Part shown: piece after piece, positions 4,873-31,084 of the stretch
Position numbering within the stretch: the stretch's first letter is position 1
Layout: each line of letters begins with the position of its first letter
From: a virus
Virus record (IMG/VR): IMGVR_UViG_3300023176_005023
Coordinates: 1-51,590 of that record
Strand: one strand, 5' to 3'
DNA: 51,590 nt
The notes under the pieces: generated by a model
The model's database searches: none
Told to the model about the DNA's origin: nothing
Seen by the model: the letters and a program-made list of their open reading frames with translations, nothing else
Program-made: the position numbers and the translations under genes

Positions 4873-5625
4873 TTATCTTCTTTCAATATCTTCTTCAGAC
4901 AAAGTATCTCCCATCCAAACTTCAATCACCTTACAAGCATTTTCACCTACATTAGTAGCTTTGTGCCACGATTTCTTGGGAATGTCGATGCTTTCGCCGG
5001 TTGAGTAAACTTTTGAAGTCTTATATCCACTCTGAAACTCAAGGTTCATTTCAAGTTTGCCATCAACAATATGCCAATGCTCAGATCTTGCAAAATGCCT
5101 TTGATCGCTTAATGATTTACCAGGATCAATAGTAAGTTCTTTTACTTTCCAATGCCCATTAGAATCAAGGTTTCGGTATTTACCCCAAAGACGTTGCGTT
5201 TCAGGTTTGTCCCAGTTAGATAGAATCCATGATGAGCTATTCTTTTTATCTTCGCCACCTACGCCAAAAACAAATTCTACATCATCAAATACCATCTCAG
5301 GAATATTGTCTTTAGTACGATCTCCGCCATTTGCAAACACGATTTCAGAATTACGTGGAAACATATCTTTTACATGTTGAATTGCAGCAATAGCGCTGTT
5401 ATCGTCGTCATTAAAACCGAAAGCATTACCAACACATTTGATGTTTTCTACAATTGCCTTGCGTTCTTCAAATGGCATAAATGGCCGGCCTTTTTTACGA
5501 ACCAACCATTCATCACTATTAAGACCTACACAAAGAATATCACCTAGTTCCTTAGCAGCTTTAAAGTAAGCGATATGTCCTGAATGAAGTGGATCAAATC
5601 CACCGGTAACTACAACTACTCTCAT
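4873..5625 (-). CDS. RfaE/HldE-like nucleotidyltransferase fused to a ManC-type cupin
   Basis: Residues 1-135 form a cytidylyltransferase-type domain. It begins VVVVTGGFDPLHSGHIAYFK with the nucleotide-binding HxGH motif (H14-S-G-H17), then GLNSDEWLVRKKGRPFMPFE, which resembles the nucleotidyltransferase half of ADP-heptose synthase (RfaE/HldE). Residues about 155-250 match the cupin end of ManC/phosphomannose isomerase type II: DPGKSLSDQRHFARSEHW, then IPKKSWHKATN and a final GDTLSEEDIERR. The expected role is activating a sugar phosphate with a nucleotide; the cupin may bind or isomerise a sugar. Both homologies are family knowledge; the substrate is unknown. It overlaps the FkbM gene by ATGA (4 bases), placing it in the sugar-related trio. 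AAGGAA lies about 8-9 bases before the ATG. Confidence 0.82.
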   Translation of the reverse strand: MRVVVVTGGFDPLHSGHIAYFKAAKELGDILCVGLNSDEWLVRKKGRPFMPFEERKAIVENIKCVGNAFGFNDDDNSAIAAIQHVKDMFPRNSEIVFANGGDRTKDNIPEMVFDDVEFVFGVGGEDKKNSSSWILSNWDKPETQRLWGKYRNLDSNGHWKVKELTIDPGKSLSDQRHFARSEHWHIVDGKLEMNLEFQSGYKTSKVYSTGESIDIPKKSWHKATNVGENACKVIEVWMGDTLSEEDIERR

Positions 5626-7933: not shown

Positions 7934-8272
7934 TTAGTTCCAAGCAGGTTTAAAAGAACTCCTTGTTGCTCTATTAGTATTTATCTTATCCTGCAAAGTC
8001 TTATTCATGATTGCGACATCACCGTCTGTCATGTTAGATTCAATCCATGAAACAACATGAGATTTTTGTACTGCAGATAGTGCAATAAAATCTTCAGCCA
8101 AAGTGCTTGAAGCTGAAACATGGGTAACACCTTTGTAACTTGCTTCTGTACCGTCATCGTCAACAGCTCTGCGTTTCCAGTCAATTCTTACAATAGAATC
8201 TGAAAGGCTGGAACCATCAGAGCTCGTTTCCTCTTGCGTGGTGAGCTTGAGTATTTCCCAAGAATAGTTCAT
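7934..8272 (-). CDS. Small conserved phage protein, paralogue of the next gene upstream
   Basis: The protein has 112 residues and no assigned function. It aligns by eye with the 132-residue product of the upstream gene: a hydrophobic/Thr N-terminus, then SLSDSIVRIDWKRRAVDDDG against TLSNAVVQTYWKRTGTDADG, then EDFIALSAVQKSHVVSWIE against GSFVAFEDLEEATVVGWIN. It is therefore a duplicated family with a (W)KR...DxDG core and a helical VxxWI segment. Such small proteins are common near fibre genes in T4-like marine phages. AGGTGA precedes the start and the gap to the upstream gene is 7 bases. No motif points to catalysis. Confidence 0.7.
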   Translation of the reverse strand: MNYSWEILKLTTQEETSSDGSSLSDSIVRIDWKRRAVDDDGTEASYKGVTHVSASSTLAEDFIALSAVQKSHVVSWIESNMTDGDVAIMNKTLQDKINTNRATRSSFKPAWN

Positions 8273-8279
8273 TATTCAC

Positions 8280-8678
8280 CTATTCTGCTGGTGCGTCTGG
8301 ATCTGCGTCAGATTGCGCTGGTGCTTCTTCTGCTACTACCCAAGGAGGGTTACGATCTTCTTCTAAGCCATCGTCAATTTGTTTTTGAATTTGTTCATCA
8401 ATGTGAGCTTTATAGGCTGCATCTGCATCAATTACTGCATTGATCCAACCTACTACAGTAGCTTCTTCAAGATCTTCAAAAGCCACGAAAGAACCAGCAG
8501 GCACGTTTTCTGCTGTAAAAGGAGTTGCGCCTGAAAAGGTACCTTCGTTGCCGTCTGCATCCGTTCCTGTGCGTTTCCAATATGTTTGAACAACAGCGTT
8601 GCTTAGAGTAACGCCTTCGCTGTTTACCTGATCTCTAACCTTCAGGTTAGTAACAGTTGTGCTGTATGAGAAAGCCAT
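8280..8678 (-). CDS. Small conserved phage protein (family pair), acidic tail
   Basis: The protein has 132 residues, begins MAFSYSTTVTNLKVRDQVNS and is related to the 112-residue neighbour through YWKRTGTDADGNEGTFSG and ATVVGWINAVIDADA. It has an extra acidic, Ala/Pro-rich tail (APAQSDADPDAPAE). Function unknown; a virion accessory or chaperone role are both possible. GGAGATG provides the ribosome binding site. The 82-base gap upstream carries a perfect late promoter, so this gene begins a late transcript that likely continues into the sugar-related genes. Confidence 0.7.
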   Translation of the reverse strand: MAFSYSTTVTNLKVRDQVNSEGVTLSNAVVQTYWKRTGTDADGNEGTFSGATPFTAENVPAGSFVAFEDLEEATVVGWINAVIDADAAYKAHIDEQIQKQIDDGLEEDRNPPWVVAEEAPAQSDADPDAPAE

Positions 8679-8760: not shown

Positions 8761-9321
8761 TTAACCTCTATACAAATAAAGATCTACGGGAACACATATT
8801 CGTAATGACGAATAATACGGGTTAACATGATGATATGTAAAACTTGGAAATATCATAAAATCTCCAGTTTCTGGTTGGTGGTGATGTCTTTCAAACATAG
8901 GATCAAACCACTCATCATATCCTCTATTAGCATTACTTCTTGGATCTGAGAAAACGATATCCCCACCAGAACTCCGATCCTCTGCTAATACATAAAAGAC
9001 TGCCGACAAATGAGCTCCGGAATGATTATGAATTGTCATAGAATAATCTTTGCCGTGGCCGGTTATCCATCCTTTCATCTCATACTGGCGATAGTCTGTA
9101 ATCTTTTTACCTATAGTTTTATTCAAATACTCATCAAACTTTTGATAAACCATCTCTTCAAAGTCAATAATAACATCCGAGCCGTCATCCATAATGTTAT
9201 AGCCGCCAAGATCGCTAGGCGGTGATTGCAAATCATACTCAGTAAGAATATGCTCAGCAAGACCGGGCACATTAAACTTACCTTTTGCTACTTGAGTAGG
9301 CCATAAGTTTTCAATAATCAT
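8761..9321 (-). CDS. 2OG-Fe(II) oxygenase-like protein (third of three)
   Basis: This 186-residue protein carries the pattern of the phage and cyanobacterial putative 2OG-Fe(II) oxygenases: TIHNHSGAHLSAVFYVLAED (H98, H100), GGDIVFSDPRSN, then GDFMIFPSFTYHHVNPY (H164/H165) and SLRICVPVD with R174, the usual 2-oxoglutarate-binding Arg. I start it at the ATG at 9321, not an ATG at 9354 that would overlap the upstream gene by 32 bases, because AGGTG lies 5 bases before 9321 and homologues begin with such a MIIENLWPTQ phrase. These enzymes hydroxylate proteins or small molecules using Fe(II) and 2-oxoglutarate; the substrate is unknown. The first ligand motif is HxH rather than the classic HxD/E. 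Confidence 0.78.
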   Translation of the reverse strand: MIIENLWPTQVAKGKFNVPGLAEHILTEYDLQSPPSDLGGYNIMDDGSDVIIDFEEMVYQKFDEYLNKTIGKKITDYRQYEMKGWITGHGKDYSMTIHNHSGAHLSAVFYVLAEDRSSGGDIVFSDPRSNANRGYDEWFDPMFERHHHQPETGDFMIFPSFTYHHVNPYYSSLRICVPVDLYLYRG

Positions 9322-9322
9322 A

Positions 9323-10018
9323 TCACACCTGCGCCGGATCGTAGCCACTTTCATGGCCTTCTGTTTTCACACCATTATAAGTCATGATTCTTTCCACGTC
9401 CGGGTGAATTGACAGGTTACAAACTACAGTTACTCTTTCATTACCAAAGTATTGAGTGACATTGTGCCAGATATAAGTTGGGACAATAACCATTCTTCGA
9501 GCTCTCGTATCCACCTCATAGATCTGAGGATTTCTCATGCCGGGATTTGTATGAAATGACGGATCCCAAAGTTGTAGTACTCCACCTTCCTTATCATTAT
9601 CAACATCATCTAAGTAGAATAAACCATATGCTAATGAACCAGGATGTGTATGCAAAGCAATATAATCGCCTTCTTTCATGACAGGCATTTGCCCATGTTG
9701 GTTTGCTATCATTTCATCGATTTGTTGTTTTGTAAGAGTATTACCTTCATACGATTCGGCGAGCTCAAGAAAACCTTTTTTAAACTCTTCTCTCACCTTA
9801 TCTAAGACTGGAAACAGCTTAATGTTTTCTTCTGTAAATAAAGGAAAAGGATCTGAGTTTACATGATATCCTGGCTCTCCAATGCCGTGCTCATAATGAT
9901 GAGTCCATGTAGCATGAGCACATATTCTTAGTTCATCCATTTCTTCGTCTGTAAAAGGAAGATTATCTTTAATTAAAATGTGAGTTGGATGAATTTTTAC
10001 AATACTTGGATTATCCAT
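9323..10018 (-). CDS. 2OG-Fe(II) oxygenase-like protein (second of three)
   Basis: The protein has 231 residues. The double-stranded beta-helix signature is DYIALHTHPGSLAYGLFYLD (H123, H125), GGVLQLWDPSF, RRMVIVPTYIWHNVTQYFG (H185) and NERVTVVCNLSI (R195). It belongs to the same broad group as the downstream gene but is clearly diverged from it, so this is not a recent duplication. The N-terminal 110 residues are mostly helical. AAAGGTGA precedes the ATG, and a TATAAATA lies 46 bases upstream inside the 3' end of the neighbouring gene. Protein hydroxylation is a plausible role; related genes are common in T4-like marine phages, where the substrate is generally unknown. Confidence 0.78.
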   Translation of the reverse strand: MDNPSIVKIHPTHILIKDNLPFTDEEMDELRICAHATWTHHYEHGIGEPGYHVNSDPFPLFTEENIKLFPVLDKVREEFKKGFLELAESYEGNTLTKQQIDEMIANQHGQMPVMKEGDYIALHTHPGSLAYGLFYLDDVDNDKEGGVLQLWDPSFHTNPGMRNPQIYEVDTRARRMVIVPTYIWHNVTQYFGNERVTVVCNLSIHPDVERIMTYNGVKTEGHESGYDPAQV

Positions 10019-10022
10019 ATTT

Positions 10023-10526
10023 TCACCTTTCCATAATATTAAATTCTATATTTGCCACATCTCTATTTATAGTCTTTTTTAAGTTTATCACTCTATGCCT
10101 AAATTCGTCCGTTTGATTTAAAACCACGATATCATATTTCTTTGGATATATTGTAACACGATTGGGTGAATTTTCTCTTTTGATTTCAATCCCGCCACCA
10201 GTTGATTCATCCATGTCTGTTAAATACATTAAGAAAGCTATATTAGATCCTTCTATATGATCTGTGTGCCATGTATCTGTTTGTTGATCTATACCTCTCC
10301 AAGCATCTACATTACCAAAAATAGAATCTTTGTCTTTTAAAATTAAACGATTTATTTTCTTTTGAGTTTTTCTTAAAAGCCACAAACCTATTGGCCAATA
10401 ATGAATTGGATATTTCGCTCCATGATTCTTTATCATTGGACATCTATAGAACCACTTTAAATAAGTAAAGAGTCGTGGATCATTAAAATGATCGTATCCT
10501 TCTATTTGTAGCTTTTCATAATTCAT
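10023..10526 (-). CDS. 2OG-Fe(II) oxygenase with complete HxD...H...R set (first of three)
   Basis: This 167-residue protein is the most canonical of the three: TWHTDHIEGSNIAFLMYLTD holds H87-T-D89, GGGIEIKRE follows, and YPKKYDIVVLNQTDEFRHRV supplies H144; R155 in TINRDVANIEFN is the likely 2-oxoglutarate ligand. The length and layout match small prolyl-hydroxylase-like oxygenases. The start is weakly supported (no strong ribosome binding site) but overlaps the upstream stop by ATGA, suggesting coupled translation. Substrate unknown; the collagen-like fibre and the CHxS protein in this window are candidate targets by context only. Confidence 0.82.
   Translation of the reverse strand: MNYEKLQIEGYDHFNDPRLFTYLKWFYRCPMIKNHGAKYPIHYWPIGLWLLRKTQKKINRLILKDKDSIFGNVDAWRGIDQQTDTWHTDHIEGSNIAFLMYLTDMDESTGGGIEIKRENSPNRVTIYPKKYDIVVLNQTDEFRHRVINLKKTINRDVANIEFNIMER
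10064..10071 (-). promoter_or_regulatory. Possible T4-type late promoter inside a coding region
   Basis: A perfect TATAAATA on the minus strand in the 3' end of the first oxygenase gene, 46 bases before the ATG at 10018. The spacing is like that of the intergenic copies here. In AT-rich DNA a few such octamers occur by chance. Confidence 0.4.
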
Positions 10527-10933
10527 TCATCTACAGATTCTAAAATCTCTTCTTTGTAATATTCATATATATCTGGCACCATACCAGTCATATCAACTTC
10601 ACCGATAGCATCAAGAATAGCATCATACGTATAACGATCTTCATCGTATGGAACAAAGTAAGGATCGTGCGGTAATAGTTCTGAGTCGTTTAATGTATCA
10701 TAGAAATCTTCTTCAAAATCATCACCAATCCATGTCGCATAACAAATCGCTACTACATAAGATTTAGATGGGTAGATCCATTCATCTACATATTCTTCGA
10801 AGTGGCGAACTGCTTCTGTAATAATATCCTCGCCTTCTACTAAATTAATTTCTACGTCTCTCAGATCATCTTTATATTCTGCATCTCCGTTGACCATACT
10901 GAAATATTGCTGCCTGATTTTCCATTCTTTCAT
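10523..10933 (-). CDS. Acidic protein of unknown function
   Basis: The 136-residue protein is strongly acidic and rich in Asp, Glu and Tyr (for example DDFEEDFYDTLNDSELLPHD and EDRYTYDAILDAIGEVD). I do not recognise a family. The first 35 residues (MKEWKIRQQYFSMVNGDAEY) are mixed, then VRHFEEYVDEWIYPSKSYVV suggests an alpha/beta fold. It overlaps both neighbours (1 base upstream, 4 bases downstream) and has GAGG before the ATG, so it is translated with the radical SAM/oxygenase group. An accessory or antirestriction-like acidic protein are both possible; nothing decides between them. Confidence 0.6.
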   Translation of the reverse strand: MKEWKIRQQYFSMVNGDAEYKDDLRDVEINLVEGEDIITEAVRHFEEYVDEWIYPSKSYVVAICYATWIGDDFEEDFYDTLNDSELLPHDPYFVPYDEDRYTYDAILDAIGEVDMTGMVPDIYEYYKEEILESVDE

Positions 10934-11679
10934 TATGCCTCGTATTCCTTTAGTAATTGTGCCTTATCACAAAAATCTAGATATGCACTGGTGACTTTAT
11001 AGTGATTATAGAAAAATAACTTCTTAATTCTTTCCCATATGTTTCTTTCTACCATTGGGTAACCAAACGTAAATACGATTGATTCGTAATGAGTATATTC
11101 ACGATTCATTTGAATATTCCAAAACTTGGTAAGATCCTCGTCGGTGTATGGTTTATCTCTCCTGTCTGCAATAGGAGAGTTAGCGAACGAGAAATCATCG
11201 TAAACTATATGTAGGTGTATTGCGTCAGACCACCAAGGTACTGGTTTCTTTGGCCTTTCGACTGTATTTATTGCGTTGTCATACCAGTAAATATCACAAC
11301 GAAGTTTATTCACTTCTTCTATAAATTCTTGCTTCTGCTCTTTTGTATTAAATACGACTCCTATATACCTGTGTCTGGAATCGTCGTGGCCTTGACAACT
11401 TGTGTATGTCAAGTAGCCTTTCTTATGTAACTCAAGTACTGCCCTCTTCACACCGGGCTCTAAATTTTTATCGATTATATCTGAGTACTGACTTACAAAT
11501 GTGCTTACATATTGCCCAAGATGATCTCGGAACATGTAAGTTCTTCCGTTGACGAGATGTAGATTACCTTTTTCAAACATAGCATAACGATGACCATCTT
11601 CTACACTTCGTAAATGAGGATCGTCTTTTCTGCTATATTCTTGTTGATACTGTACTCTATACTCGTACTGCGTCTTCAT
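10933..11679 (-). CDS. Unknown protein with a TSCQGH motif
   Basis: The protein has 248 residues and no confident family. A notable motif lies at about 86-108: LHKKGYLTYTSCQGHDDSRH followed by YIGVVF, in which a Cys and a His sit in a loop after a helix. SC(Q/E/S)G(H/R) motifs occur in several poorly characterised phage and plasmid proteins. The C-terminal half is rich in Tyr, Trp and His (HLHIVYDDFSF, FWNIQMNREYTHYES). It overlaps the preceding radical SAM gene by 23 bases and touches the acidic protein gene, placing it firmly in the modification operon. A metal-binding or substrate-handling role is a guess. Confidence 0.6.
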   Translation of the reverse strand: MKTQYEYRVQYQQEYSRKDDPHLRSVEDGHRYAMFEKGNLHLVNGRTYMFRDHLGQYVSTFVSQYSDIIDKNLEPGVKRAVLELHKKGYLTYTSCQGHDDSRHRYIGVVFNTKEQKQEFIEEVNKLRCDIYWYDNAINTVERPKKPVPWWSDAIHLHIVYDDFSFANSPIADRRDKPYTDEDLTKFWNIQMNREYTHYESIVFTFGYPMVERNIWERIKKLFFYNHYKVTSAYLDFCDKAQLLKEYEA

Positions 11680-12580
11680 TATACCATTCTAGTAGGTTGA
11701 AATAACCGTTGCAACCGTTTTGTTTTGGTGGGAATGCTACAAATTTGTAGTGCTCGGTTAAACACTTTCCAAAATATTTGCATTGCTTACATATATCTGA
11801 TACACCACTGTTCTTTTCTTTTATGGTCCATTGCTCATATTCTAGAAAGGATTCCAGTTCCGTAAAGCTTTCGTTACCAAGTAGGTCGAAATCCAATACA
11901 CCAAACTTGCCGCTAGGAGTAATATACACATGATCATCGCTAAAGGCGTTATAATTGCCATCTAAACATTCCTCTATCTTATCTTGATTTATGAATTGAA
12001 AGTTCTTCTCAATAGGACTATCAATCCATTTCATAATAAACTCTTCGTATTCAAGATCAGTAACATACTGCTTACGATGAGTTGTAGAGCTGAATGGTTT
12101 AATCTCTACAGCAATCAGATTGCCTAGAGTGTTAAACATATTAATCATATAGTCTACATCTTCATTTATAACATATTCTGATGCTAATGTCAATACCGAA
12201 AATGGTCTATTTAACTTAAGCATATTACCGAACACGATCATCTCTTTCTCGCGAGCACCAAAATCATATGATACAGATAGATCAATATCTTCTCTAAGAA
12301 ATGATTTACGTATTGCAGAAAGATTGGTAATAATCGAGATCGTACATTCGTATTTATCTTTGATTCTATCGATCAAATCATCTAAATATGTATCAGGTAG
12401 AATACCAATCTCACCACCATAAAGATCGATGTGTGTCACAGTAGGCTTAATCTCACTTAATCGTGCCATAATTGTGTCAATAGATGTAGTTGTTCTGTCA
12501 CGTAGTTGTTCTTTACTTAGATAGCAGAAATCACAATTAAAGTTACAAAAATAGGTAGGGTTAATCGATACTGAGAACAT
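11657..12580 (-). CDS. Radical SAM enzyme with short SPASM-like C-terminus (fifth of five)
   Basis: The protein starts MFSVSINPTYFCNFNCDFCY; C12, C16 and C19 form the CxxxCxxC [4Fe-4S] site that cleaves SAM. HIDLYGGEIG is the GGE motif that contacts the SAM amino group. The end holds CKQCKYFGKC (Cx2Cx5C) and a later GCNGYF, a reduced SPASM-type auxiliary cluster region. I start it at the ATG at 12580 because GAGGA lies 5 bases before it; another in-frame ATG at 12592 has no such site. SPASM proteins typically modify ribosomally made peptides or proteins. It overlaps the upstream radical SAM gene by 20 bases and the downstream gene by 23. Confidence 0.85.
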   Translation of the reverse strand: MFSVSINPTYFCNFNCDFCYLSKEQLRDRTTTSIDTIMARLSEIKPTVTHIDLYGGEIGILPDTYLDDLIDRIKDKYECTISIITNLSAIRKSFLREDIDLSVSYDFGAREKEMIVFGNMLKLNRPFSVLTLASEYVINEDVDYMINMFNTLGNLIAVEIKPFSSTTHRKQYVTDLEYEEFIMKWIDSPIEKNFQFINQDKIEECLDGNYNAFSDDHVYITPSGKFGVLDFDLLGNESFTELESFLEYEQWTIKEKNSGVSDICKQCKYFGKCLTEHYKFVAFPPKQNGCNGYFNLLEWYNEDAVRV

Positions 12581-13613
12581 CAATTTCCTCATTCACATAT
12601 GGGGTTACACTATTTGGATCTAACCCGTTAATTTCTAGAATACGAGGGGCAAGAGATTTCATATGTTTACAATGAGATTCTGCTTGCCCTTCTCGCTTCA
12701 TATCACGCACTGTCTTTTTACAGCCATTGCATATTTCAAACATGGGACAACTATAACAGGCTTGCTTTAATGTTTGAATATTAAAGTCATCTTGTAGTGG
12801 AGTGGAAAATCCTCCGTTTAACTCATGTTCAAAGGAGATAGGATAATCCCTATCATCACCAAAGGAACCACAAGAATAGTAATCGCCTCCAGGATTGAAG
12901 GCCCGTATGTGTTCGTCGCATCGACGATTTTGTGGACAACTTGTTGCATTACCTTTTAACCTCCGCATCATTTGCTTGGTATTATATTCCCACTTCCACA
13001 GACCTCGATCGTAAATTTCGATGTAAGTCTCATAAATCTTACTTAGTCTGTAAGTGGACCCTTGTATACCAGAGGCCATAGCATAATTGAGTTTGCATTC
13101 GACATCCATTTCCTTAGCAAGCTCAACATTACGAATAGCATCTGGTGCATCTTCATCAGTCATAACTGCAATAAAATCTGGACGATATCCAACAAGATCT
13201 AGCATCTTATTCGATGCCAACCAGAAATCTTTCTCTGTGAAGATTGTGTAATCGCCTTTTAAACGACCTTTACCATATTGGAAACTGGTACATATTCCTA
13301 GACGTGGGTGGCGAAACAAATCTATCCACTTCTCTGGCTTTACAACAAAAGGCCATAAATTGGTTGTGAAACTAATATTCGCAGGATAGTCATGCTCATC
13401 TAAATGATCTATAATCTTCCAATAATAACTAGGTTCCACCATCAAAGGGTCGCCACCATTTACGATAATGGTGCGAGTGTGAGGATACCTCTTTAAAAAT
13501 TTGAAAATATAATCATGATCCAAAAGCTTTGCTTTATTCGGATCAATATCTGTAGACGAACAGAAAGTACACTTAAAGTTGCAAGCTTCTGTCGGCTTTA
13601 TTATTAGTTCCAT
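12561..13613 (-). CDS. Radical SAM/SPASM enzyme (fourth of five)
   Basis: The 350-residue enzyme has ELIIKPTEACNFKCTFC at the N-terminus (C11, C15, C18: CxxxCxxC) and TIIVNGGDPLMVEPSYY as the GGE-like motif with Asp in place of Glu. The C-terminal third has the spaced cysteines of a SPASM domain: CPQNRRCDEH, YYSCGSF, CYSCPMFEICNGC and SHCKHM. These would hold one or two auxiliary [4Fe-4S] clusters. The family modifies peptide substrates or acts as an anaerobic sulfatase-maturase-type enzyme; the target here is unknown. The gene overlaps the upstream one by 41 bases and the downstream one by 20. Confidence 0.88.
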   Translation of the reverse strand: MELIIKPTEACNFKCTFCSSTDIDPNKAKLLDHDYIFKFLKRYPHTRTIIVNGGDPLMVEPSYYWKIIDHLDEHDYPANISFTTNLWPFVVKPEKWIDLFRHPRLGICTSFQYGKGRLKGDYTIFTEKDFWLASNKMLDLVGYRPDFIAVMTDEDAPDAIRNVELAKEMDVECKLNYAMASGIQGSTYRLSKIYETYIEIYDRGLWKWEYNTKQMMRRLKGNATSCPQNRRCDEHIRAFNPGGDYYSCGSFGDDRDYPISFEHELNGGFSTPLQDDFNIQTLKQACYSCPMFEICNGCKKTVRDMKREGQAESHCKHMKSLAPRILEINGLDPNSVTPYVNEEIDVLSID

Positions 13614-14634
13614 TCAATAATTCCATCATCAAAGTTTTAGGTGCAGGACAAACGTCACCTTGCCATTCAAGTTGGTGGCAGTCGGAGTGGCAATAGGCAA
13701 ATACCGGACACGAATAGCAACGTGGATCTCTTATGACTTGTTCGTCGATAATTACCTTTTGCCGCCCCTTGCTATTTATAACGTCTTCTACTGATTGTTT
13801 AATATTGCCATAATGATCGGTAGGAGCAGCGTTAGGGCAGCCAGCAATAGTACCATCCGCATTAATCGTAAATAATTTTTGTTCACAATCTCTGCAAAAC
13901 GTTCCTTGGTGTAAGAGTCCTTTTTCAAATTTGTTATAGACCGTTTCCATGAAGACATCTTCAAACTCCTCTCTTATATCATAACATTCCTCATATGCTC
14001 TCATAAAGAAATCTTGAAGTGCTGCATTCGTAGGATAAAGCTTTTCGCCATATAACAAAGCATTACCATTACCGGTAATACGTTCCCAAGATATTTCCGT
14101 GATGCCAAGACCTCTCAAATAATCAATCATTTCTCGAGGAGACCTATTGACAACGTCCTTAGATAATGATACAAATGCTTTAAGAATGAATCCTTGATCT
14201 ACTAAGAATCTTACGTTGTCTTCCCAAAGCTTTTCTTGCTTTTCATTTGCAAAGCGTATTGTTGGATCCCATGATGTTCCAATACGTTTACCTGTCATTA
14301 CACGAGAAAAGAAATCTAATCTATCATCTGTTAACTTATATGTAAGATTAGTTGTAATACCGAATGAACCTCTTACGCCCCATACGCTTTGTACTCTATT
14401 ATAGAATTCAAATAGATCTTCGGTTTTAGCAAGCATAGGCTCGCCACCGTGATATTCAAAGTGGCATATTTTTGTGCCATCATATAACTGATTAACCCAG
14501 TTAGCGGTAGCCACTGGGTCAAAGTATATTTTAGCTCCGTTGATTCCGCTTGTAAAGCAGTGGAAGCAATTTAAGTTACACGTCTCCGTGGTCTTGACGT
14601 ATACACTCAGATTGCTCTGTATCGGACAAACCAT
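13573..14634 (-). CDS. Radical SAM/SPASM enzyme (third of five)
   Basis: The 353-residue enzyme has YVKTTETCNLNCFHCFTSG with C19, C23 and C26, and HFEYHGGEPMLAKTEDLF as the GGEP motif. Its SPASM end is the most classical of the set: FCRDCEQKLFTINADGTIAG, then CPNAAPTDHYGNI, then CYSCPVFAYCHSDCHQLEW and VCPAPK. This order resembles anSME-like and peptide-modifying SPASM proteins. It overlaps the cupin gene by 59 bases, the longest overlap in the window, and the only ATG near the CxxxCxxC motif is the chosen one. AAGGA lies about 13 bases upstream, which is weak. Peptide modification is the most likely role by family. Confidence 0.88.
   Translation of the reverse strand: MVCPIQSNLSVYVKTTETCNLNCFHCFTSGINGAKIYFDPVATANWVNQLYDGTKICHFEYHGGEPMLAKTEDLFEFYNRVQSVWGVRGSFGITTNLTYKLTDDRLDFFSRVMTGKRIGTSWDPTIRFANEKQEKLWEDNVRFLVDQGFILKAFVSLSKDVVNRSPREMIDYLRGLGITEISWERITGNGNALLYGEKLYPTNAALQDFFMRAYEECYDIREEFEDVFMETVYNKFEKGLLHQGTFCRDCEQKLFTINADGTIAGCPNAAPTDHYGNIKQSVEDVINSKGRQKVIIDEQVIRDPRCYSCPVFAYCHSDCHQLEWQGDVCPAPKTLMMELLNGTNNKADRSLQL
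13773..13780 (-). promoter_or_regulatory. Possible T4-type late promoter inside a radical SAM gene
   Basis: A perfect TATAAATA on the minus strand about 160 bases before the ATG at 13613. The distance is longer than for the other copies, so chance is a real alternative. Confidence 0.25.
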
Positions 14635-15073
14635 AACTAAACATTAATCCTTCTCGTACATTCAATGCTCTGTGAGGAGTATCTGCGGGTATTTGCCAAA
14701 AGTCTCCCTCCTCAAGATTATGAATAACGTCGTTCACTTCAATTGTTTTATGACCAGCACTTACATGTAATAATACATCAACTGGGTCGGTATGTACACC
14801 AAAACTTGGCGATTCTTTCCAGTATCTAAAAGCATGAATGGTGCCTTCTTTAAAGCCACAAACGTGTTCGATACCTTCAACCTTTATTGTATCATTAGAT
14901 TCTGCAAGCTTTACTTGTACCTTTGCTAAGTACTCATTGTAGTCATCTGATACTATTTTAACATCTTTTCCACGATTGTCAATATATAATGTGCGATCAT
15001 ACATATAAGCTTCATGGCTTAGTACGTATTCTTCAAAGTCTTCGTAGGACCATTTTAAATTAGGCAGTTGCAT
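14576..15073 (-). CDS. Cupin protein with HxD...H triad, possible Fe(II) oxygenase
   Basis: The 165-residue protein is a single-domain cupin: SFGVHTDPVDVLLHVSAGHK forms the first motif and EEGDFWQIPADTPHRALNVR the second. H94-T-D96 and H134 are placed like the facial triad of cupin-fold 2-oxoglutarate oxygenases, so it may bind Fe(II); a sugar-binding or non-catalytic cupin is the alternative. It sits between two radical SAM genes (overlaps 59 and 14 bases) and is transcribed and probably translated with them. AAAGGAAC lies about 9 bases before the ATG. A role in the same modification pathway follows from position only. Confidence 0.75.
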   Translation of the reverse strand: MQLPNLKWSYEDFEEYVLSHEAYMYDRTLYIDNRGKDVKIVSDDYNEYLAKVQVKLAESNDTIKVEGIEHVCGFKEGTIHAFRYWKESPSFGVHTDPVDVLLHVSAGHKTIEVNDVIHNLEEGDFWQIPADTPHRALNVREGLMFSYGLSDTEQSECIRQDHGDV

Positions 15074-16976
15074 ACTCTAGTTCCTTTGTTTGAGTAGGCT
15101 GAGAAAATGCCCTTACAAAGAGTTCGTTAAGAAGAATGATTTCATTATCGTCTTGTGTGAGTTCCATGATGCATTCTAATCTAGATTTGTTGCCAATAAT
15201 TCTTTTCAATCCACGAGGTGGAGTGTCTGGATTCAAAATGTCTACAATATTTTCGTGCACTTCGTCAAAACCAGGAATACAATCACGAATTACAGCGTAA
15301 CACATTCTGCAAAACTCTGCTGGAGTAAGAACATCTTTAAATGTGTCATAATGCTTTTGCAAAAGAATATTACCACAAACATTCATAAACCACATCTCAT
15401 GAAATTCTTCGCGAGTAAATGAATAGCAAGATGCAATTGTTTTAAAGTAAGACTTTAGGCCACGATATAGACCATATCTATTATCAGCCCCGCCTTCTTC
15501 AATAACATCGGTATAGCATTCCACAACTTCAATATCATACTTTTTTATATATTCAGGATCTGTAAGTTCAGAATCTGGTAGGAACATATAGTCATGTCTC
15601 CATGAACCGTACGATTTAAAGTTATAGTAAATCTCATACTCATTATAGAAGTCATCTATAGTAGATCCAGGCATTCCTAGAATTAATTCTACGGGTGGCT
15701 TTGGATAACCTTCAACGTTGCAACGCTGATTAATATGGCGCGCGAGTGCTAACTTATCTTCTAAATTTAGATCAACTCTATTTACTACATCCATAGCTTC
15801 TTTACTAATACTTTGGATACTTACTGTTGGAACTACTGAGATATAAAGAGCTTCGCCTTCTGCTGCTTGCTTTCTTCTAATATCATCTTCCCAGTCTTCT
15901 CCATCTTGCTCACCAAAATTATCAACCATTCCACGGCTCGTATTCTGTTCATTGAATACGTGAATTGTGGTACCCATAGCCTGATTTTCTGCCGAGCCCA
16001 TAAAGAACAATGCATGAGAACCTTGCTCAGGTACAAACACTTCTGAGTGCTTCTCTTCGCCTGTTCCTAACGTGTCAAACCATGCATCAACAAGTTTCTT
16101 TCTTCTTGCAAGGTCTCTTGATTTAAAAGTTGAGATGTCGGTAAGATTAAATCCATTCTTAAAGGTCCAATCAAAGATCTCGATGTCTCTTTCTAAGAAT
16201 GCGCCGAAGTTTGCATCGGTAAGATAAGCATCTCGGAAGCCTGCGTCTTTCAAAGCCTCAACATCTCGCTTATAAATGTCTAGATCTTTCTTATAGATCT
16301 TAGTACCAATACCTCCGCCCCATTCACAGAATGCACACTTAAATGGACAGCCACGAGTAGATTCTAATGCCATGAATGGCTCAAGTACCTGAGTACGAGC
16401 CCACTCGCGCATTTCTTTAAGATAATCCATATGTTCTTCATAAACAGAATAATCTTGGTCTGCGATATTTAGAACACCTTTTTTATTTGAGCGCCATTCC
16501 CAAGTTACATCTTCATGTTTTGGCCATTGATTTAAATTATTAAAATATCCATCAAGCAGAGAGTTCATGAATATTTCGCCGGGCTTGGTTACCTGACAAA
16601 TATAATCATATAGTTCATATCTTAGATTCATTAGTTTTGGCTCGTTACGACCAATATGAGGTCCGCCGATTACTGTAATAGCTTCTGGGTTTTGCTCTCT
16701 TACGAGCTTAGCAACCTCATCGCACATCTGATAGTTCCAAATATATGAACTAAAGCAGTATACGTCAAGAGGTTCTCCCTGCTCCATATCTTCTTTAATT
16801 TCTTGGAAAGATCGATACACGTCAAATTTGTATGTTGCAGGAACAAACTCTACTTTATCGGGATACATTCCCTCATGTTTATAATGACTTTCTAACATCA
16901 TCCACGTCAAATTAGACGGCGTTTGCCAATCTGCATGAGGTGGTGACATGTAACCTAAACGTAATTTTTTACTCAT
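15060..16976 (-). CDS. B12-binding-type radical SAM protein (second of five)
   Basis: The 638-residue protein has an N-terminal Rossmann-like region (about 1-140) of the cobalamin-binding radical SAM type: KLRLGYMSPPHADW, PLDVYCFSSYIWNYQMCDEV and AITVIGGPHIGRNEPKLM. I see no DxHxxG base-off motif, which many members lack. The radical SAM core follows with MALESTRGCPFKCAFCEWGG (C210, C214, C217). Between the barrel parts there is an Asp/Glu-rich segment (about 320-385, containing NFGEQDGEDWEDD). VELILGMPGSTIDDFYNEYE is the usual late barrel motif. Such enzymes often methylate unactivated carbons or rearrange peptides and small molecules; the reaction here is unknown. It overlaps the upstream gene by ATGA. 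Confidence 0.85.
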   Translation of the reverse strand: MSKKLRLGYMSPPHADWQTPSNLTWMMLESHYKHEGMYPDKVEFVPATYKFDVYRSFQEIKEDMEQGEPLDVYCFSSYIWNYQMCDEVAKLVREQNPEAITVIGGPHIGRNEPKLMNLRYELYDYICQVTKPGEIFMNSLLDGYFNNLNQWPKHEDVTWEWRSNKKGVLNIADQDYSVYEEHMDYLKEMREWARTQVLEPFMALESTRGCPFKCAFCEWGGGIGTKIYKKDLDIYKRDVEALKDAGFRDAYLTDANFGAFLERDIEIFDWTFKNGFNLTDISTFKSRDLARRKKLVDAWFDTLGTGEEKHSEVFVPEQGSHALFFMGSAENQAMGTTIHVFNEQNTSRGMVDNFGEQDGEDWEDDIRRKQAAEGEALYISVVPTVSIQSISKEAMDVVNRVDLNLEDKLALARHINQRCNVEGYPKPPVELILGMPGSTIDDFYNEYEIYYNFKSYGSWRHDYMFLPDSELTDPEYIKKYDIEVVECYTDVIEEGGADNRYGLYRGLKSYFKTIASCYSFTREEFHEMWFMNVCGNILLQKHYDTFKDVLTPAEFCRMCYAVIRDCIPGFDEVHENIVDILNPDTPPRGLKRIIGNKSRLECIMELTQDDNEIILLNELFVRAFSQPTQTKELEYATA

Positions 16977-18082
16977 TTATCTCTCTTCGAATCCACATAT
17001 CTAAATAGTTCTTTGTTTATACACTCGTCCATGTCCTGCTTCATGTTTCCAGCTTTAATTCCTGAGAAACACATCATAGGACATCTTTGATAAAATTCGC
17101 ATGCATGACAATTATATTTATCAAGGAAACTCGTTAAAGTATTATCAAGAAAATTATCTGGTCCGTTATGTTGGCGATAAGAAGGCGAGTTAAACTTCTT
17201 CAAATAATGAGAGCCAACACATCCTTCTGGAATAATCTTATTGTCCCAATCAATAGCAGCACCATTACCACGAGAACATATCGTATGCATCTGATGGTCT
17301 TTTGGCTGCATAAAAGGTATAATATATTCTACTTTCGGATATTTGTCAACCAATAATTTATAAAATGCTAAAACTTCTGATTCTAAAGGTATCTCAACGT
17401 CGTTATGTTCTGTTCCTTTAATGTATTGATCCCAAGAATAATCAAATCTGCTATATAAGTAATCATAATATTCGTCACCTGCTAGTAAAGCTTGAATATT
17501 TTGTTTTGTAATCACTGAGTTAATATTACGAATATAAGGTGCAAAGATCTCAATATTCTCTTTAAATATCTGTAAGTTCTTTTGATTAAATCTACCTTTT
17601 AAATCAAACGATACAACGAATGTCGTATCCTCACCCTGCTCATCCATGAACCGTTTAATTTCATCTCTGGTCTCAACCATACTAAAATTAGAGATCCAAA
17701 TGAATTCTAGTACTTGATCTGTGAGATTTGTTTTTTCTCTCACTCCATTTGCAAGATCTCTATAGGCTTCTAGGAGATTAGAATCTTTTAGGATAGCGTC
17801 ATTAAATGGTTCACCACCAATCATTCGAACAACAAATTCTGTAGCAAAACTATTTTGATTAATATATTCAGCAATAATATCTGCTTTAGATACTATAGAC
17901 TCATAGTTCATACCTTTTTTACTATTATGATCTTGTGGGCAAAATGAACACGCAAAGTTGCAGTACTCAAAGAGTATTACAACAATCTCGCACGACTTAT
18001 TTCTTTTTTCGAAAATTAGATTTGCAGCGGTGTCAGAGCCCCACTTATCACCAGTCTCGGTGACATCAATCATATTAATCAT
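16973..18082 (-). CDS. Radical SAM/SPASM enzyme (first of five)
   Basis: The 369-residue enzyme begins with about 30 residues (MINMIDVTETGDKWGSDTAA) before EIVVILFEYCNFACSFCPQD, where C41, C45 and C48 form CxxxCxxC. FVVRMIGGEPFNDAILK is the GGEP motif. The C-terminus is SPASM-like: TICSRGNGAAIDWDNKIIPE, EGCVGSHYL, then CHACEFYQRCPMMCFSGIK and DECINKELF. It is the first radical SAM gene after the CHxS protein and the two unknown proteins. AAAGGT lies 5 bases before the ATG at 18082. A second in-frame ATG 9 bases later is less well placed. A peptide-modifying role is the family expectation. Confidence 0.87.
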   Translation of the reverse strand: MINMIDVTETGDKWGSDTAANLIFEKRNKSCEIVVILFEYCNFACSFCPQDHNSKKGMNYESIVSKADIIAEYINQNSFATEFVVRMIGGEPFNDAILKDSNLLEAYRDLANGVREKTNLTDQVLEFIWISNFSMVETRDEIKRFMDEQGEDTTFVVSFDLKGRFNQKNLQIFKENIEIFAPYIRNINSVITKQNIQALLAGDEYYDYLYSRFDYSWDQYIKGTEHNDVEIPLESEVLAFYKLLVDKYPKVEYIIPFMQPKDHQMHTICSRGNGAAIDWDNKIIPEGCVGSHYLKKFNSPSYRQHNGPDNFLDNTLTSFLDKYNCHACEFYQRCPMMCFSGIKAGNMKQDMDECINKELFRYVDSKRDK

Positions 18083-18094
18083 TACAAACCTTTA

Positions 18095-19267
18095 TTACGT
18101 ATGGCTGAATTTATTTAACTGAGTTGTATTTTCTGCAATTTTTAATTGATAAAGATACTCAATCCAAAATGTATTTATTTTTTCCTGCATATATTCATAG
18201 TGCCAAACTTTAGTAGTTCCCTGATAAGTAATATCATCTGCAATAATATCTTCCCAAGCTGTATCTCTTATTTCTGTGTTAGATAAGTTTGTTCCATCTA
18301 TTCTATTAAGCATTCCTTCAGCACCTTTAATAACATCCTGAAGCTCGACGTCGTTAGCATCGTCTGCGTTTGTATTATCTACAACCCATTGAAGCCATCC
18401 CAAGCCTACATCCCAATGCGCAACACGGTATTCCCAGTTTTCTACAAGGGCGTCGTAGGATCTGTCAAAAAGAAAATCCATATCAGAATTCGCAGCTCTA
18501 AGTGAAGTCATCCAGTTTGGATCGGTCCAGTTCAATGTTACGCCAGTCATAGAGCGAACTTTTTCTGTCATAATATTATCTCTAATATATTCTCTTAGAT
18601 CACTAACAATTCCAAAGCCAATTTTTGAATGTATTCTTTGACCTTTTATTGCAATGGGAGTTATTGTAATGTCACCACACAAATATGCTGCGAGCTGAAT
18701 CTCAATACACAAACTGTCTCTTAAAGCGTCTCGAACAGACGTATAATAAGAAGCCTCAACAGTATCTGCCGTATTAAATGCATTATATGCGGTTGCGAAT
18801 TCTGATTGAGTATACACTGCTTCTGCCATTGCGTCAGCAACTCTAATAGCAGAAAAAGATCTGCTTGACATATTATCAACTTCTACAAGTTTTTCTCTTT
18901 GTCTTGTTATATTATAGAGTATAAAAGCAGCGTCAACATCTATATTTGGCATTGCTACTTTAAGCCAAGCAAAGAACAATTTATGATATGATTCAGCGTC
19001 TGCATATATTCTTCCAGACCAATCATTATCATATAAAGATTTAATAAAGTGAGCATATGATTCGTGCTGGCCCTCATCGCTTCCAATAATATCATCTATT
19101 GAAGCTGTCCAATGAAGTATTTCAGTTCCATAGCCAGGACTTGCAAGAGTACTCATATTAGTATATTGATGCTGATTTCTTTCAACAGAAAATACAGCTC
19201 TATCCTGAGAGTTATCATAAGCCCAGTCTGGAGAAACATATACTTTATCAAATAGGTTAAACGACAT
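18095..19267 (-). CDS. Unrecognised 390-residue protein in the modification locus
   Basis: I do not recognise this protein. It begins MSFNLFDKVYVSPDWAYDNS, has a compact N-terminal segment with ASPGYGTEILHWTASIDDII and SDEGQHESYAHFIKSLYDND, and becomes helical with many Trp and Asp residues after residue 130 (for example WEYRVAHWDVGLGWLQWVVD). There is no signal peptide, membrane segment or nucleotide-binding motif. It overlaps the 365-residue gene by 11 bases and lies 12 bases from the first radical SAM gene. The position between the CHxS protein and the enzymes makes a substrate-handling, chaperone or scaffold role worth testing; that is inference. Confidence 0.65.
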   Translation of the reverse strand: MSFNLFDKVYVSPDWAYDNSQDRAVFSVERNQHQYTNMSTLASPGYGTEILHWTASIDDIIGSDEGQHESYAHFIKSLYDNDWSGRIYADAESYHKLFFAWLKVAMPNIDVDAAFILYNITRQREKLVEVDNMSSRSFSAIRVADAMAEAVYTQSEFATAYNAFNTADTVEASYYTSVRDALRDSLCIEIQLAAYLCGDITITPIAIKGQRIHSKIGFGIVSDLREYIRDNIMTEKVRSMTGVTLNWTDPNWMTSLRAANSDMDFLFDRSYDALVENWEYRVAHWDVGLGWLQWVVDNTNADDANDVELQDVIKGAEGMLNRIDGTNLSNTEIRDTAWEDIIADDITYQGTTKVWHYEYMQEKINTFWIEYLYQLKIAENTTQLNKFSHT

Positions 19268-20354
19268 TCTTTTTTAATTCCTCTGGTATACATTCGTCCC
19301 ATTTGCCAGCCGCAATTACTTTTGTTTGTACACAAAGAGTGTTTGCTTCTGTATCAAAGTACGAAAACATGTTTCTTCCTTTAAATCTATATTCATTAAA
19401 TTGATTCGTGAAAATCTTTCCTTTTCTATCTCCAATAGATCCTATATAATATCCAATCCAAGGCAGAGCATACGTATTAACAAAGTTAATTCCTACATAG
19501 TCTGGATCATCTACCTCTTCAAATGTTTTTTCAACAAAATCGTTAAACTCAGGAATATTTAAACATTGAAAATTAAAGATTGGAGATGAGTCTAACATCT
19601 CACACCATCTTTTTACAATATCTAAATTCTCTTCAATAAAATCTTCTGCATTATTTAGTCTTTCAAAGTACATGTAAGGTGCTAGTGGATCATCACAAAA
19701 TTCATCAATTTCTTCTTGATCAACAGTAGGAATATTAGTTCCAAACTCATACATTGGTTTCAGCACTTTCATATATTGACAACAAACCGCCAATGCTTCT
19801 CTTGCTAACTGCTCAATATCAACCAAAGCTGTTGTTGTGCTCATGTAAGCAGCAACTAATTCTTTTAAAGCATCTCTATCATTATAAGTTTCTTCATCAA
19901 AATCTGCATCTAGATTCAAGTTACTTAGATAGATCATCAAAGCATTTGCGTCTAGTTTACCAGCTCTATAGTTAATCTTAAAAGCAGTATTCTCTTTATC
20001 CTGAAAGTACTCTTTTAAAACCTCCATAGGTAAAGGACAGCTTGTTTCAATAATCTTTTTTGGTTTTAAAGCCTGTTTTTTCTTAAGATCTTCTACACTT
20101 TCTTGTACATCGTCATTATAAGAGTTGTCTCGGATAACCGCTTGAATCTCTTTACTTACTTGCTCTTTAGAAGATTTTTTAGGTTTAATATCATCAGCGT
20201 TTTCTTCTACGAATTTAAGCACTTCTTCCTTTGTAATGCCTACATTTTTTAAAGCATTCCAAGAAGTAATAGAAAGATCTTGGTTTCTTTCCCATTCAGA
20301 TTTTAGAGTTTCAAGTTTTAATCCGGCTTTTTCAATTTTTTCTACAAGATTCAT
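19257..20354 (-). CDS. Unrecognised 365-residue acidic helical protein next to the CHxS gene
   Basis: No family recognised. Residues 1-105 are charged and helical, perhaps coiled coil (VEKIEKAGLKLETLKSEWER, KSSKEQVSKEIQAVI), followed by a Lys-rich linker (DLKKKQALKPKKI). Residues 105-300 are acidic and helical with scattered cysteines (AREALAVCCQYMKVL, CDDPLAPYMYFERLNNAED). The end has GRNMFSYFDTEANTLCVQTK. AAGGAA precedes the ATG, and the gene begins 12 bases after the stop of the CHxS protein, so the two are likely co-expressed. An adaptor that presents the CHxS tail to the radical SAM enzymes is one idea; nothing in the sequence proves it. Confidence 0.65.
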   Translation of the reverse strand: MNLVEKIEKAGLKLETLKSEWERNQDLSITSWNALKNVGITKEEVLKFVEENADDIKPKKSSKEQVSKEIQAVIRDNSYNDDVQESVEDLKKKQALKPKKIIETSCPLPMEVLKEYFQDKENTAFKINYRAGKLDANALMIYLSNLNLDADFDEETYNDRDALKELVAAYMSTTTALVDIEQLAREALAVCCQYMKVLKPMYEFGTNIPTVDQEEIDEFCDDPLAPYMYFERLNNAEDFIEENLDIVKRWCEMLDSSPIFNFQCLNIPEFNDFVEKTFEEVDDPDYVGINFVNTYALPWIGYYIGSIGDRKGKIFTNQFNEYRFKGRNMFSYFDTEANTLCVQTKVIAAGKWDECIPEELKKNVV

Positions 20355-20366
20355 TATATAAATTCC

Positions 20367-20942
20367 TTATCTTCTTCCTCTAGAACTGTGACAACTTGTA
20401 TGACAGCTATTGTGACAATACGTAATATCAAAGTCTGCTCTATTATCTTTTAATGTATCCCATGCATTAAATAAATTAGTGCAAAGGTTATTAAAATCAG
20501 CAGCGTGCGCAACTTCATCTTCTGTAACACCACCACTGTTAACTAATGTCATAGTTTGTCTTTGCCCAGTATCACGGACAGTAATACCGTCAGCAGATCC
20601 TCTCTCTGTCACTGTGCCACCATCATTCTGGCGAAGCCATCTCACCTTACACTGGCGTATGTTAGTGAGGTTTCCAGTTGCCGCAGTAAGATGTAAATAA
20701 ACCTTCACCGCTTCAATAGTCGTACCATCATCACCAATTCCAGTGACTGTTACATCAGAGCTTGGATTATCTGCAGCATAATTAGCGTCTGGAGCTACCT
20801 GCCCATCATCTACGCCTGTAGTCGGTGTGTGTTTTGCTGTAGAATGATACACGATTGTATTGTGGGCTGGAGTTTCCACCGCATCAATAAATGCCTGTCT
20901 CGCTGCTGAATTTTCTATTAAATCGCCTGCTGTTACCGCCAT
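20367..20942 (-). CDS. Virion-like protein with a C-terminal (CHxS)3-RGRR tail: candidate modified substrate
   Basis: The 191-residue protein has a body (1-170) that reads like a small phage structural protein: Thr/Gly/Asp-rich, beta-type, with DVTVTGIGDDGTTIEAVKVY and CKVRWLRQNDGGTVTERGS. It then ends YCHNSCHTSCHSSRGRR (175-191): three perfect C-H-x-S units (C176-S187) plus a basic RGRR. There is no signal peptide. The ATG overlaps the stop of the giant fibre as TAATG, and a TATAAATA lies 65 bases upstream within that fibre, so it can be expressed with or without it. The gene is followed directly by two unknown proteins and then five radical SAM enzymes. Bacterial Hxs systems pair a His-Xaa-Ser-repeat peptide (HxsA) with two radical SAM enzymes; this looks like a phage analogue. 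Other readings are a metal site or a CX3CH heme-type site. Confidence 0.8.
   Translation of the reverse strand: MAVTAGDLIENSAARQAFIDAVETPAHNTIVYHSTAKHTPTTGVDDGQVAPDANYAADNPSSDVTVTGIGDDGTTIEAVKVYLHLTAATGNLTNIRQCKVRWLRQNDGGTVTERGSADGITVRDTGQRQTMTLVNSGGVTEDEVAHAADFNNLCTNLFNAWDTLKDNRADFDITYCHNSCHTSCHSSRGRR
20382..20417 (-). repeat. Coding tandem repeat (Cys-His-Xaa-Ser)x3
   Basis: Three consecutive 12-base units encode CHNS, CHTS and CHSS (codons TGT CAC/CAT N AGC/AGT/TCT). The codons vary at synonymous positions (CAC/CAT, AGC/AGT/TCT), so the repeat is kept at the protein level rather than being a fresh DNA duplication. Confidence 0.95.
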
Positions 20943-31042: not shown

Positions 31043-31084
31043 TCGGTTCACTCTCCCCAGTTTGGCGTATATTCTGCTTTGATA

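Follow-up and report, generated by a model that had tools for sequence, protein, structure and literature searches.

A conserved set of radical SAM enzymes and a CHxS-tailed protein suggest a protein-maturation pathway encoded by jumbo and marine phages

What does a phage do with five different radical S-adenosylmethionine (SAM) enzymes encoded side by side? The question is raised by the viral record IMGVR_UViG_3300023176_005023 of IMG/VR, which was analyzed over its full stretch of 51,590 nucleotides (here called the window) and encodes five CxxxCxxC proteins on the minus strand between positions 11657 and 18082. An initial annotation had regarded such a number in one phage locus as unusual and as a sign of a multistep pathway. 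Unusual it is, yet phages with several radical SAM genes have already been reported, namely, Campylobacter phages CP220 and CPt10 with 11 to 12 (PMC2853527), Aeromonas phage 332-Vera with 8 (PMC12390700), pPa_SNUABM_DT01 with 6 (PMC8541153), and Burkholderia phages FLC6 and S13 (PMC8066314, PMC11898562), and radical SAM cassettes were noted in the host-recognition island of pelagimyophages (PMC7029224). In the portions of these papers that were available, the genes were deemed unusual, accessory, metabolic, or related to DNA repair, and no target protein, tail, or conserved gene order was named. Here, we propose as the probable explanation that the locus specifies a protein-maturation pathway resembling those of ribosomally synthesized and posttranslationally modified peptides (RiPPs), with the CHxS tail of a small, probably virion, protein as the substrate. 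Sequence comparisons demonstrate the anatomy of the locus, the intact cluster motifs, the conserved gene set, the linkage between tail and radical SAM genes, the gene fusions, and selection at the level of residues; from these, we infer the tail as substrate, its chemistry, its location in the virion, and a role in adsorption.

All five open reading frames (ORFs) carry the motifs originally assigned to them, and CxxxCxxC is conserved across representatives of each. In the order of transcription, they encode r1 (16973 to 18082; CNFACSFC), a B12-binding radical SAM protein (15060 to 16976; CPFKCAFC), r3 (13573 to 14634; CNLNCFHC), r4 (12561 to 13613; CNFKCTFC), and r5 (11657 to 12592; CNFNCDFC). 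A cupin/JmjC-like putative Fe(II) oxygenase (14576 to 15073, minus strand; PF07883, 5e-7; PF08007, 4e-5) is encoded between the second and third of them. Since neighboring genes overlap by 4 to 59 bp in one minus-strand run, we follow the description of these genes as a single operon. A search of the whole 51.6-kb contig with PF04055 returned exactly five matches, all between 11657 and 18082; those of r4 and r5 (5e-9 for r5) exceeded the cutoff, and those of r1, r3, and the B12-binding protein were below it but detectable (E values of 0.0005 to 0.002). The cupin keeps H94, D96, and H134 across its homologs, an HxD...H arrangement that we take to be typical of Fe(II) oxygenases.

Four of the enzymes were predicted to bear SPASM-like auxiliary cysteines, and this was borne out: r1 has seven (C269, C288, C325, C328, C334, C338, and C354), r3 and r4 have eight each, and r5 has four, i.e., only one cluster's worth, all of them retained in 90% or more of the divergent homologs. 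Moreover, r3 exceeds the cutoffs of both SPASM/Twitch models, PF13186 (3e-6) and TIGR04085. The same four proteins match phrog_1802 (3e-27 for r1 up to 2e-57 for r4) and are distantly related to one another (HHalign probability of 96.5 to 99.7), and in a tree built from 15 records they form separate clades with 99 to 100% SH-aLRT support. Recent duplication of one gene, already doubted in the initial annotation, is ruled out by this tree; according to profiles and phylogeny, r1, r3, r4, and r5 are ancient paralogs within a single phage family, phrog_1802. Conservation is highest in r4, which is 51 to 60% identical to its jumbo-phage homologs. The remaining enzyme (638 amino acids) does not match phrog_1802. 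As its B12-type annotation implied, it combines B12-binding and radical SAM domains (PF02310, 6.8e-6) and resembles KedN5-like C-methyltransferases (NF033712, 1.7e-29).

Which substrate might such enzymes share? Upstream of r1 lies a gene for a protein of 191 amino acids (20367 to 20942, minus strand) that ends in YCHNSCHTSCHSSRGRR (tail codons at 20370 to 20417), i.e., three CHxS repeats at the C terminus in the pattern C-H-x-S-C-H-x-S-C-H-x-S-R-G-R-R. The tail is present in all 134 distinct members of this CHxS family that lack a glycine-rich domain (exact in 132, with Asn for Ser in 2) and in 17 of 17 members from loci that had not been chosen by the tail. No Cys, His, or Arg position of the tail varies among the 134 proteins; Ser is rarely replaced by Asn, in the second repeat only, and once by Ala, in the third repeat. 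The presumed precursors range from 125 to 310 amino acids and, outside the tail, are only about 27% identical to the protein of the window. The tail codons are freely mixed (entropy of 0.98 to 1.00 bit for Cys and His; Ser encoded by both TCN and AGY), which excludes conservation at the DNA level and therefore indicates selection on the residues themselves.

We found the tail and the radical SAM genes together in very different phages. When r3, r4, and r5 were each used as tblastn queries against 50,697 phage records, they retrieved the identical seven records, representing six distinct phages: Burkholderia phages FLC6, FLC8, and SURPRISE13, Agrobacterium phage Atu_ph07, Sinorhizobium phage Phosso, and Pseudomonas phage pPa_SNUABM_DT01. 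FLC6, S13, and SNUABM_DT01, known for their radical SAM genes, thus carry the same cassette as the window. In the five jumbo-phage loci examined, a protein ending in (CHxS)3-R[GS]RR, in one case with Ala for the last Ser, is encoded directly downstream of r3, with a cupin or an unnamed small ORF on the upstream side; a homolog of the end of the tailed protein is also present in FLC8. The CHxS protein of the window itself retrieved no phage from these records by tblastn, and the SNUABM homolog as query did.

A scan of IMG/VR DNA for the tail yielded at least 119 stretches, and all 40 tail-bearing records that were searched as a whole contained phrog_1802 matches (four in 33 records, five in 4, and fewer in 3). 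Conversely, the exact tail pattern occurred in 25 of 42 r3-bearing fragments. To make the scan independent of the tail, an alignment of the CHxS protein from which the tail had been cut off served as query. It found 80 loci, and all 76 intact ORFs among them end in CHxxCHxxCHxxRxRR and have cassette radical SAM genes in the locus; of the other four loci, two are cut by the contig end beside r3 and two have no ORF. In a neutral sample of 28 T4-like records, picked by the unrelated structural gene phrog_3758, the exact tail was present in 12 of 17 records positive for radical SAM genes (phrog_1802 at an E value of 1e-20) and in none of the 11 negative ones, including a 221-kb record (hypergeometric P = 2e-4, a value that is only indicative because the records are related). 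Among the five positive records without the exact tail, one has Asn for one Ser (L282), in three, the contig begins inside or beside the cassette, and the fifth (G070) belongs to a lineage whose CHxS genes lie several kilobases away. The reversed pattern, used as a control, was found neither in the 42 fragments nor in the 28 neutral records. Taken together, these genome comparisons make the link between tail and radical SAM genes a strong one.

A search of 257 Gb of prokaryote genomes found the tail pattern in 13 stretches, two of them chance matches and 11 encoding CHxS family members, most of which are accompanied by cassette genes. With only two chance matches and an empty reversed-pattern control, a chance origin of the tail was rejected. 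A bacterial operon borrowed by phages was likewise rejected, as most of the matching genome contigs resemble phage contigs within draft genomes or metagenome-assembled genomes. The cassette was also seen on two large contigs (L262, 382 kb, PAMZ01000003.1; L265, 228 kb) that had been binned with Halobacteriovoraceae or unclassified bacteria and may be either jumbo phages or chromosomes.

The initial annotation had asked whether a CHxS gene keeps this company elsewhere. An absence of such synteny is no longer tenable, because the CHxS gene adjoins r3 in other phages: it lies directly downstream of r3 in the five cultured jumbo-phage loci and, among about 45 metagenomic records, in the majority. 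The recurrent order in these records is cupin-r3-CHxS-U365-U390-r1-[B12, oxygenases]-r4-[oxygenases]-r5-U136, and the cupin precedes r3 in almost every cassette. A second marine lineage has two CHxS genes (CHxS-CHxS-U365-cupin-r3-r4-r5-U136-r1), and the order in the window is its own, with cupin-r3 relocated beside r4. The idea of a multistep pathway is thus strongly supported for r1, r3, r4, r5, the cupin, and the partner proteins, which recur as a set in very different phages, but not for all five enzymes alike, as the B12-binding protein is an optional accessory found in only part of the cassettes surveyed.

Three conserved partners belong to this set, all encoded on the minus strand of the window: U365 (19257 to 20354; phrog_20767, 2e-36; 167 loci), the fast-evolving U390 (18095 to 19267; profile in 108 loci, mostly adjoining U365), and U136 beside r5 (10523 to 10933; phrog_20737, 1e-33; 119 loci). 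Next to U136, on the same strand, follow three 2-oxoglutarate (2OG)-Fe(II) oxygenases, A (10023 to 10526; PF13640, 2e-6), B (9323 to 10018; PF13759, 2e-7), and C (8761 to 9354; PF13759, 4e-13). Pairwise divergence is correlated for all core genes tested (Mantel values of 0.45 to 0.83; null maximum of 0.31), and the closest tracking is that of U365 with the N-terminal domain of the CHxS protein (r of 0.83). Oxygenases and U136 are further tied to the radical SAM enzymes by fusions of r5 to an oxygenase-like domain and to U136 in other phages. A fusion of r5 with a 2OG-oxygenase-like domain occurs in three loci (L070:12059-13453, L071:12059-13453, and L233:11429-12823; 464 amino acids); the PF13759 match of this domain is weak alone (E value of 0.002), and the expected His-x-Glu/His/Arg pattern was seen by eye. 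A fusion of r5 with U136 is encoded in one record (L162:10930-12276, L234); a profile match that suggested homology between r5 and U136 proved to be an artifact of the fusion protein.

For U365, a structure search gave no PDB match, and a weak alignment with SuiB (Z score of 3.6) was within noise. Searching PDB sequences with profiles yielded nothing or chance matches. A second U390-like family (364 amino acids) in the lineage with two CHxS copies could not be reliably assigned to U390 (HHalign probability of 12). Some cassettes have additional members. A further radical SAM protein (CHHKCPGC, 384 amino acids) is encoded alongside the cassette of some marine phages at L233:17026-18180 and in about 14 related loci, and an ATP-grasp (glutathione-synthetase-like) protein adjoins the cassette in two loci, e.g., at L230:11094-12116. 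Burkholderia-phage cassettes have DHFR-like genes between r1 and r4 (L011:15397-16574, L012:15325-16538, and L218:11041-11619); annotated elsewhere as pyrimidine metabolism, they may encode tailoring reductases.

What, then, could the set do? We suggest that r1, r3, r4, and r5, together with the cupin-type putative Fe(II) oxygenase and at least one 2OG oxygenase, would act on the three CHxS repeats and that U365, U390, and U136 probably present the substrate or serve as scaffolds. The radical SAM enzymes would form side-chain cross-links, most plausibly either from His(i) to the β-carbon of Ser/Asn(i+2) as three-residue cyclophanes or as Cys thioethers, or both, and the oxygenases would hydroxylate. 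In some phages, the B12-binding enzyme would join in as a C-methyltransferase, and its optional presence suggests C-methylation in these cases. The protein would retain the modified tail, which may form a rigid, possibly metal-binding tip at the cell surface. As to the chemistry, we prefer cyclophanes since H-x-S, H-x-N, and H-x-A all keep the β-carbon, and Asn or Ala would not be accepted if the chemistry took place on the Ser hydroxyl; taken by itself, this choice is speculative and rather doubtful, and Cys thioethers, Cys oxidation, and His hydroxylation are possible alternatives.

Two observations point to the virion. Proteomics of Atu_ph07 assigned most virion proteins to CDS 31 to 76, 170 to 215, and 284 to 329 (PMC6102473), and CDS 170, the first gene of the published cluster 170 to 215, encodes the CHxS protein; the numbering of paper and record agrees, with gp215 being the major head protein. 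The position of CDS 170 is a strong hint, not proof, that the CHxS protein belongs to the virion. The N-terminal domain of the CHxS family also heads a Gly_rich_2 protein (PF21722, 2e-10) without the CHxS tail, whose gene adjoins the tailed one (L239:5865-6791 and L100:4643-5569). In the window, the gene directly upstream of the CHxS gene, outside the cassette, encodes a repetitive protein of 3,369 amino acids (20942 to 31051, minus strand), judged fiber-like from its repeats only. Further downstream, past the oxygenases, are phrog_7802 paralogs, genes of glycan type, and genes for a virion structural protein (phrog_3758), a tail-fiber protein, and a Gp38-type adhesin. We regard the CHxS protein as probably a virion protein near the host-recognition apparatus. 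The accessory U248 (10933 to 11679, minus strand; 25 loci) is encoded between r5 and U136. The two phrog_7802 paralogs stand in tandem (7934 to 8272 and 8280 to 8678) and are kept beside the oxygenases in related marine phages. At 4873 to 5625, a cytidylyltransferase-like domain is fused to a mannose-6-phosphate isomerase C-terminal domain (50 related loci), which suggests glycan synthesis in the host-recognition region.

Several observations weigh against the tail being the substrate of these enzymes. Gene linkage need not mean enzyme and substrate, and phrog_1802 is a broad family with matches in 14 of 14 ordinary bacterial genomes as well, so that the number of matches per record, not their presence, counts as evidence. 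Neither r1 nor r5 has full-length matches to peptide maturases, and the N-terminal part of r5 also resembles viperin. No Pfam or NCBIfam model of the RiPP recognition element (RRE) matched any of the ten cassette proteins scanned, among which U365 and U390 match nothing. AlphaFold gives the CHxS protein an alpha-beta fold with moderate confidence (mean pLDDT of 75) and a poorly predicted tail (pLDDT of 55 to 58), and a structure search with this model gave no PDB match.

Cys/His arrays bind metals, and metal-binding HxH motifs are established at the tips of some phage fibers. An unmodified tail could therefore be a metal-binding tip on an oligomeric virion protein, with the radical SAM enzymes acting on another need of the virion, such as a surface glycan or a neighboring protein. 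The glycan-type genes of the window would fit, as would the close tracking of the CHxS N-terminal domain by U365, from which it follows that the protein could matter apart from its tail. A plain metal site, however, needs no such company as is seen here: all tail-bearing viral records tested have phrog_1802 matches, none of the 11 relatives free of radical SAM genes has the tail, and r3 adjoins the CHxS gene in most records, whereas the glycan genes do not. We consider this explanation unlikely.

The CHxS protein can also be read as leader and core, the core being short, conserved, and C-terminal and the N-terminal domain variable. Such a layout would suit a true RiPP or scaffold-peptide pathway, in which the tail serves as scaffold or precursor for a small peptide or molecule that is set free to act on the host or on competing phages; among the nearest maturases are those for darobactin and dynobactin, both antibiotics. 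Our survey of accessory genes, however, found no recurrent peptidase or exporter in the cassette. Moreover, the N-terminal domain is large, folded, and also borne with a Gly-rich C-terminal domain, and the published virion-proteome cluster of Atu_ph07 starts at the CHxS gene, which leaves a released product only a slight chance. Auxiliary metabolism or DNA/nucleotide modification, the reading given for pPa_SNUABM_DT01 and, as a host metabolic benefit, by the CP220 authors, could draw on the partial match of r5 to the nucleotide-acting viperin and on the DHFR-like genes of Burkholderia phages but is very improbable given the SPASM-type clusters, the best full-length matches to peptide modifiers, the virion-gene neighborhood, and the constant repeat-tailed companion.

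If maturation of the CHxS tail is correct, viruses mature their own particle by oxygen-sensitive radical chemistry, which would be a previously undescribed step in phage assembly. An unexplored peptide-modifying enzyme set with a fixed target motif would then be at hand, and there might be a new principle by which jumbo and marine phages recognize their hosts. In its fullest form, which we put forward tentatively and hold at somewhat less than even chances, the proposal is that widespread phages finish a host-recognition virion protein by a multienzyme radical pathway, giving a cross-linked (CHxS)3 tip that has no counterpart among cellular RiPPs and would be the first known case of a virion component made by radical SAM chemistry. 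In the open-licence literature, to which our search was limited, no publication naming the CHxS tail or the gene set was found, and an article on RiPPs and phages (PMC11118758) contains nothing on phage-encoded radical SAM enzymes. The cassettes in the host-recognition island of pelagimyophages fit the locus type of the window. With the proposed pathway, the repeated puzzle of why some phages have six or more radical SAM genes becomes a statement that names a substrate and can be tested, and such a test is feasible because phages carrying the cassette are already in culture.

How does the locus compare with known systems? The His-Xaa-Ser (Hxs) system is similar in its paired radical SAM enzymes and a target with His-x-Ser repeats but differs in that the cassette repeats are CHxS with a terminal RGRR and no HxsD was seen. 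Membership in the HxsB and HxsC families, a check proposed in the initial annotation, is rejected: the window enzymes score 30.7 versus a cutoff of 370 bits (TIGR03978) and 24.8 versus 267.9 bits (TIGR03977), with best overall scores of 32.4 and 25.5. Likewise, no NCBIfam model of HxsA or HxsD matched the CHxS protein or the scanned neighbors at E values of up to 1. The literature on HxsB and HxsC, in the parts available, concerns bacterial enzymes, and their families differ from those of the cassette. The B12-binding enzyme shares its architecture with the methylcobalamin-dependent radical SAM C-methyltransferases of the KedN5 type without reaching their cutoff (102.5 versus 700 bits), and it differs from KedN5 in that it accompanies, as an accessory, a peptide cassette of a phage.

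Closest are the maturases of peptides and proteins, the kind of relatives the initial annotation had asked for. Over most of their length, r3 and r4 align with the models of DarE, DynA, PapB, YhhB, FxsB, and sulfatase maturases, all of which modify peptides or proteins; full-length matches of r3 include DarE, PapB, and CbpB, and those of r4 include DynA. An r3 homolog that was scored does not reach the family cutoffs of the three-residue cyclophane-forming enzymes (49.5 versus 445 bits for YhhB; 44.1 versus 370 bits for FxsB). Cyclophane and ranthipeptide maturases are radical SAM/SPASM proteins with the three CxxxCxxC cysteines and up to eight auxiliary ones, as in the cassette enzymes. Known enzymes that form three-residue cyclophanes link an aromatic residue, which may be His, to the β-carbon of residue i+2: HaaB and YhhB do so from His C2, and MscB connects Phe to Ser (PMC11002830). 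H-x-S and the rare natural H-x-N fit the geometry of these cross-links. The cassette enzymes differ from the RiPP maturases in scoring about a tenth of the curated cutoffs, in forming one conserved set of four enzymes with oxygenases, in having a phage precursor of 125 to 310 amino acids, and in being encoded by a virus. What the locus has in common with a RiPP cluster is a ribosomal precursor with a conserved core beside maturases of the peptide-modifying type.

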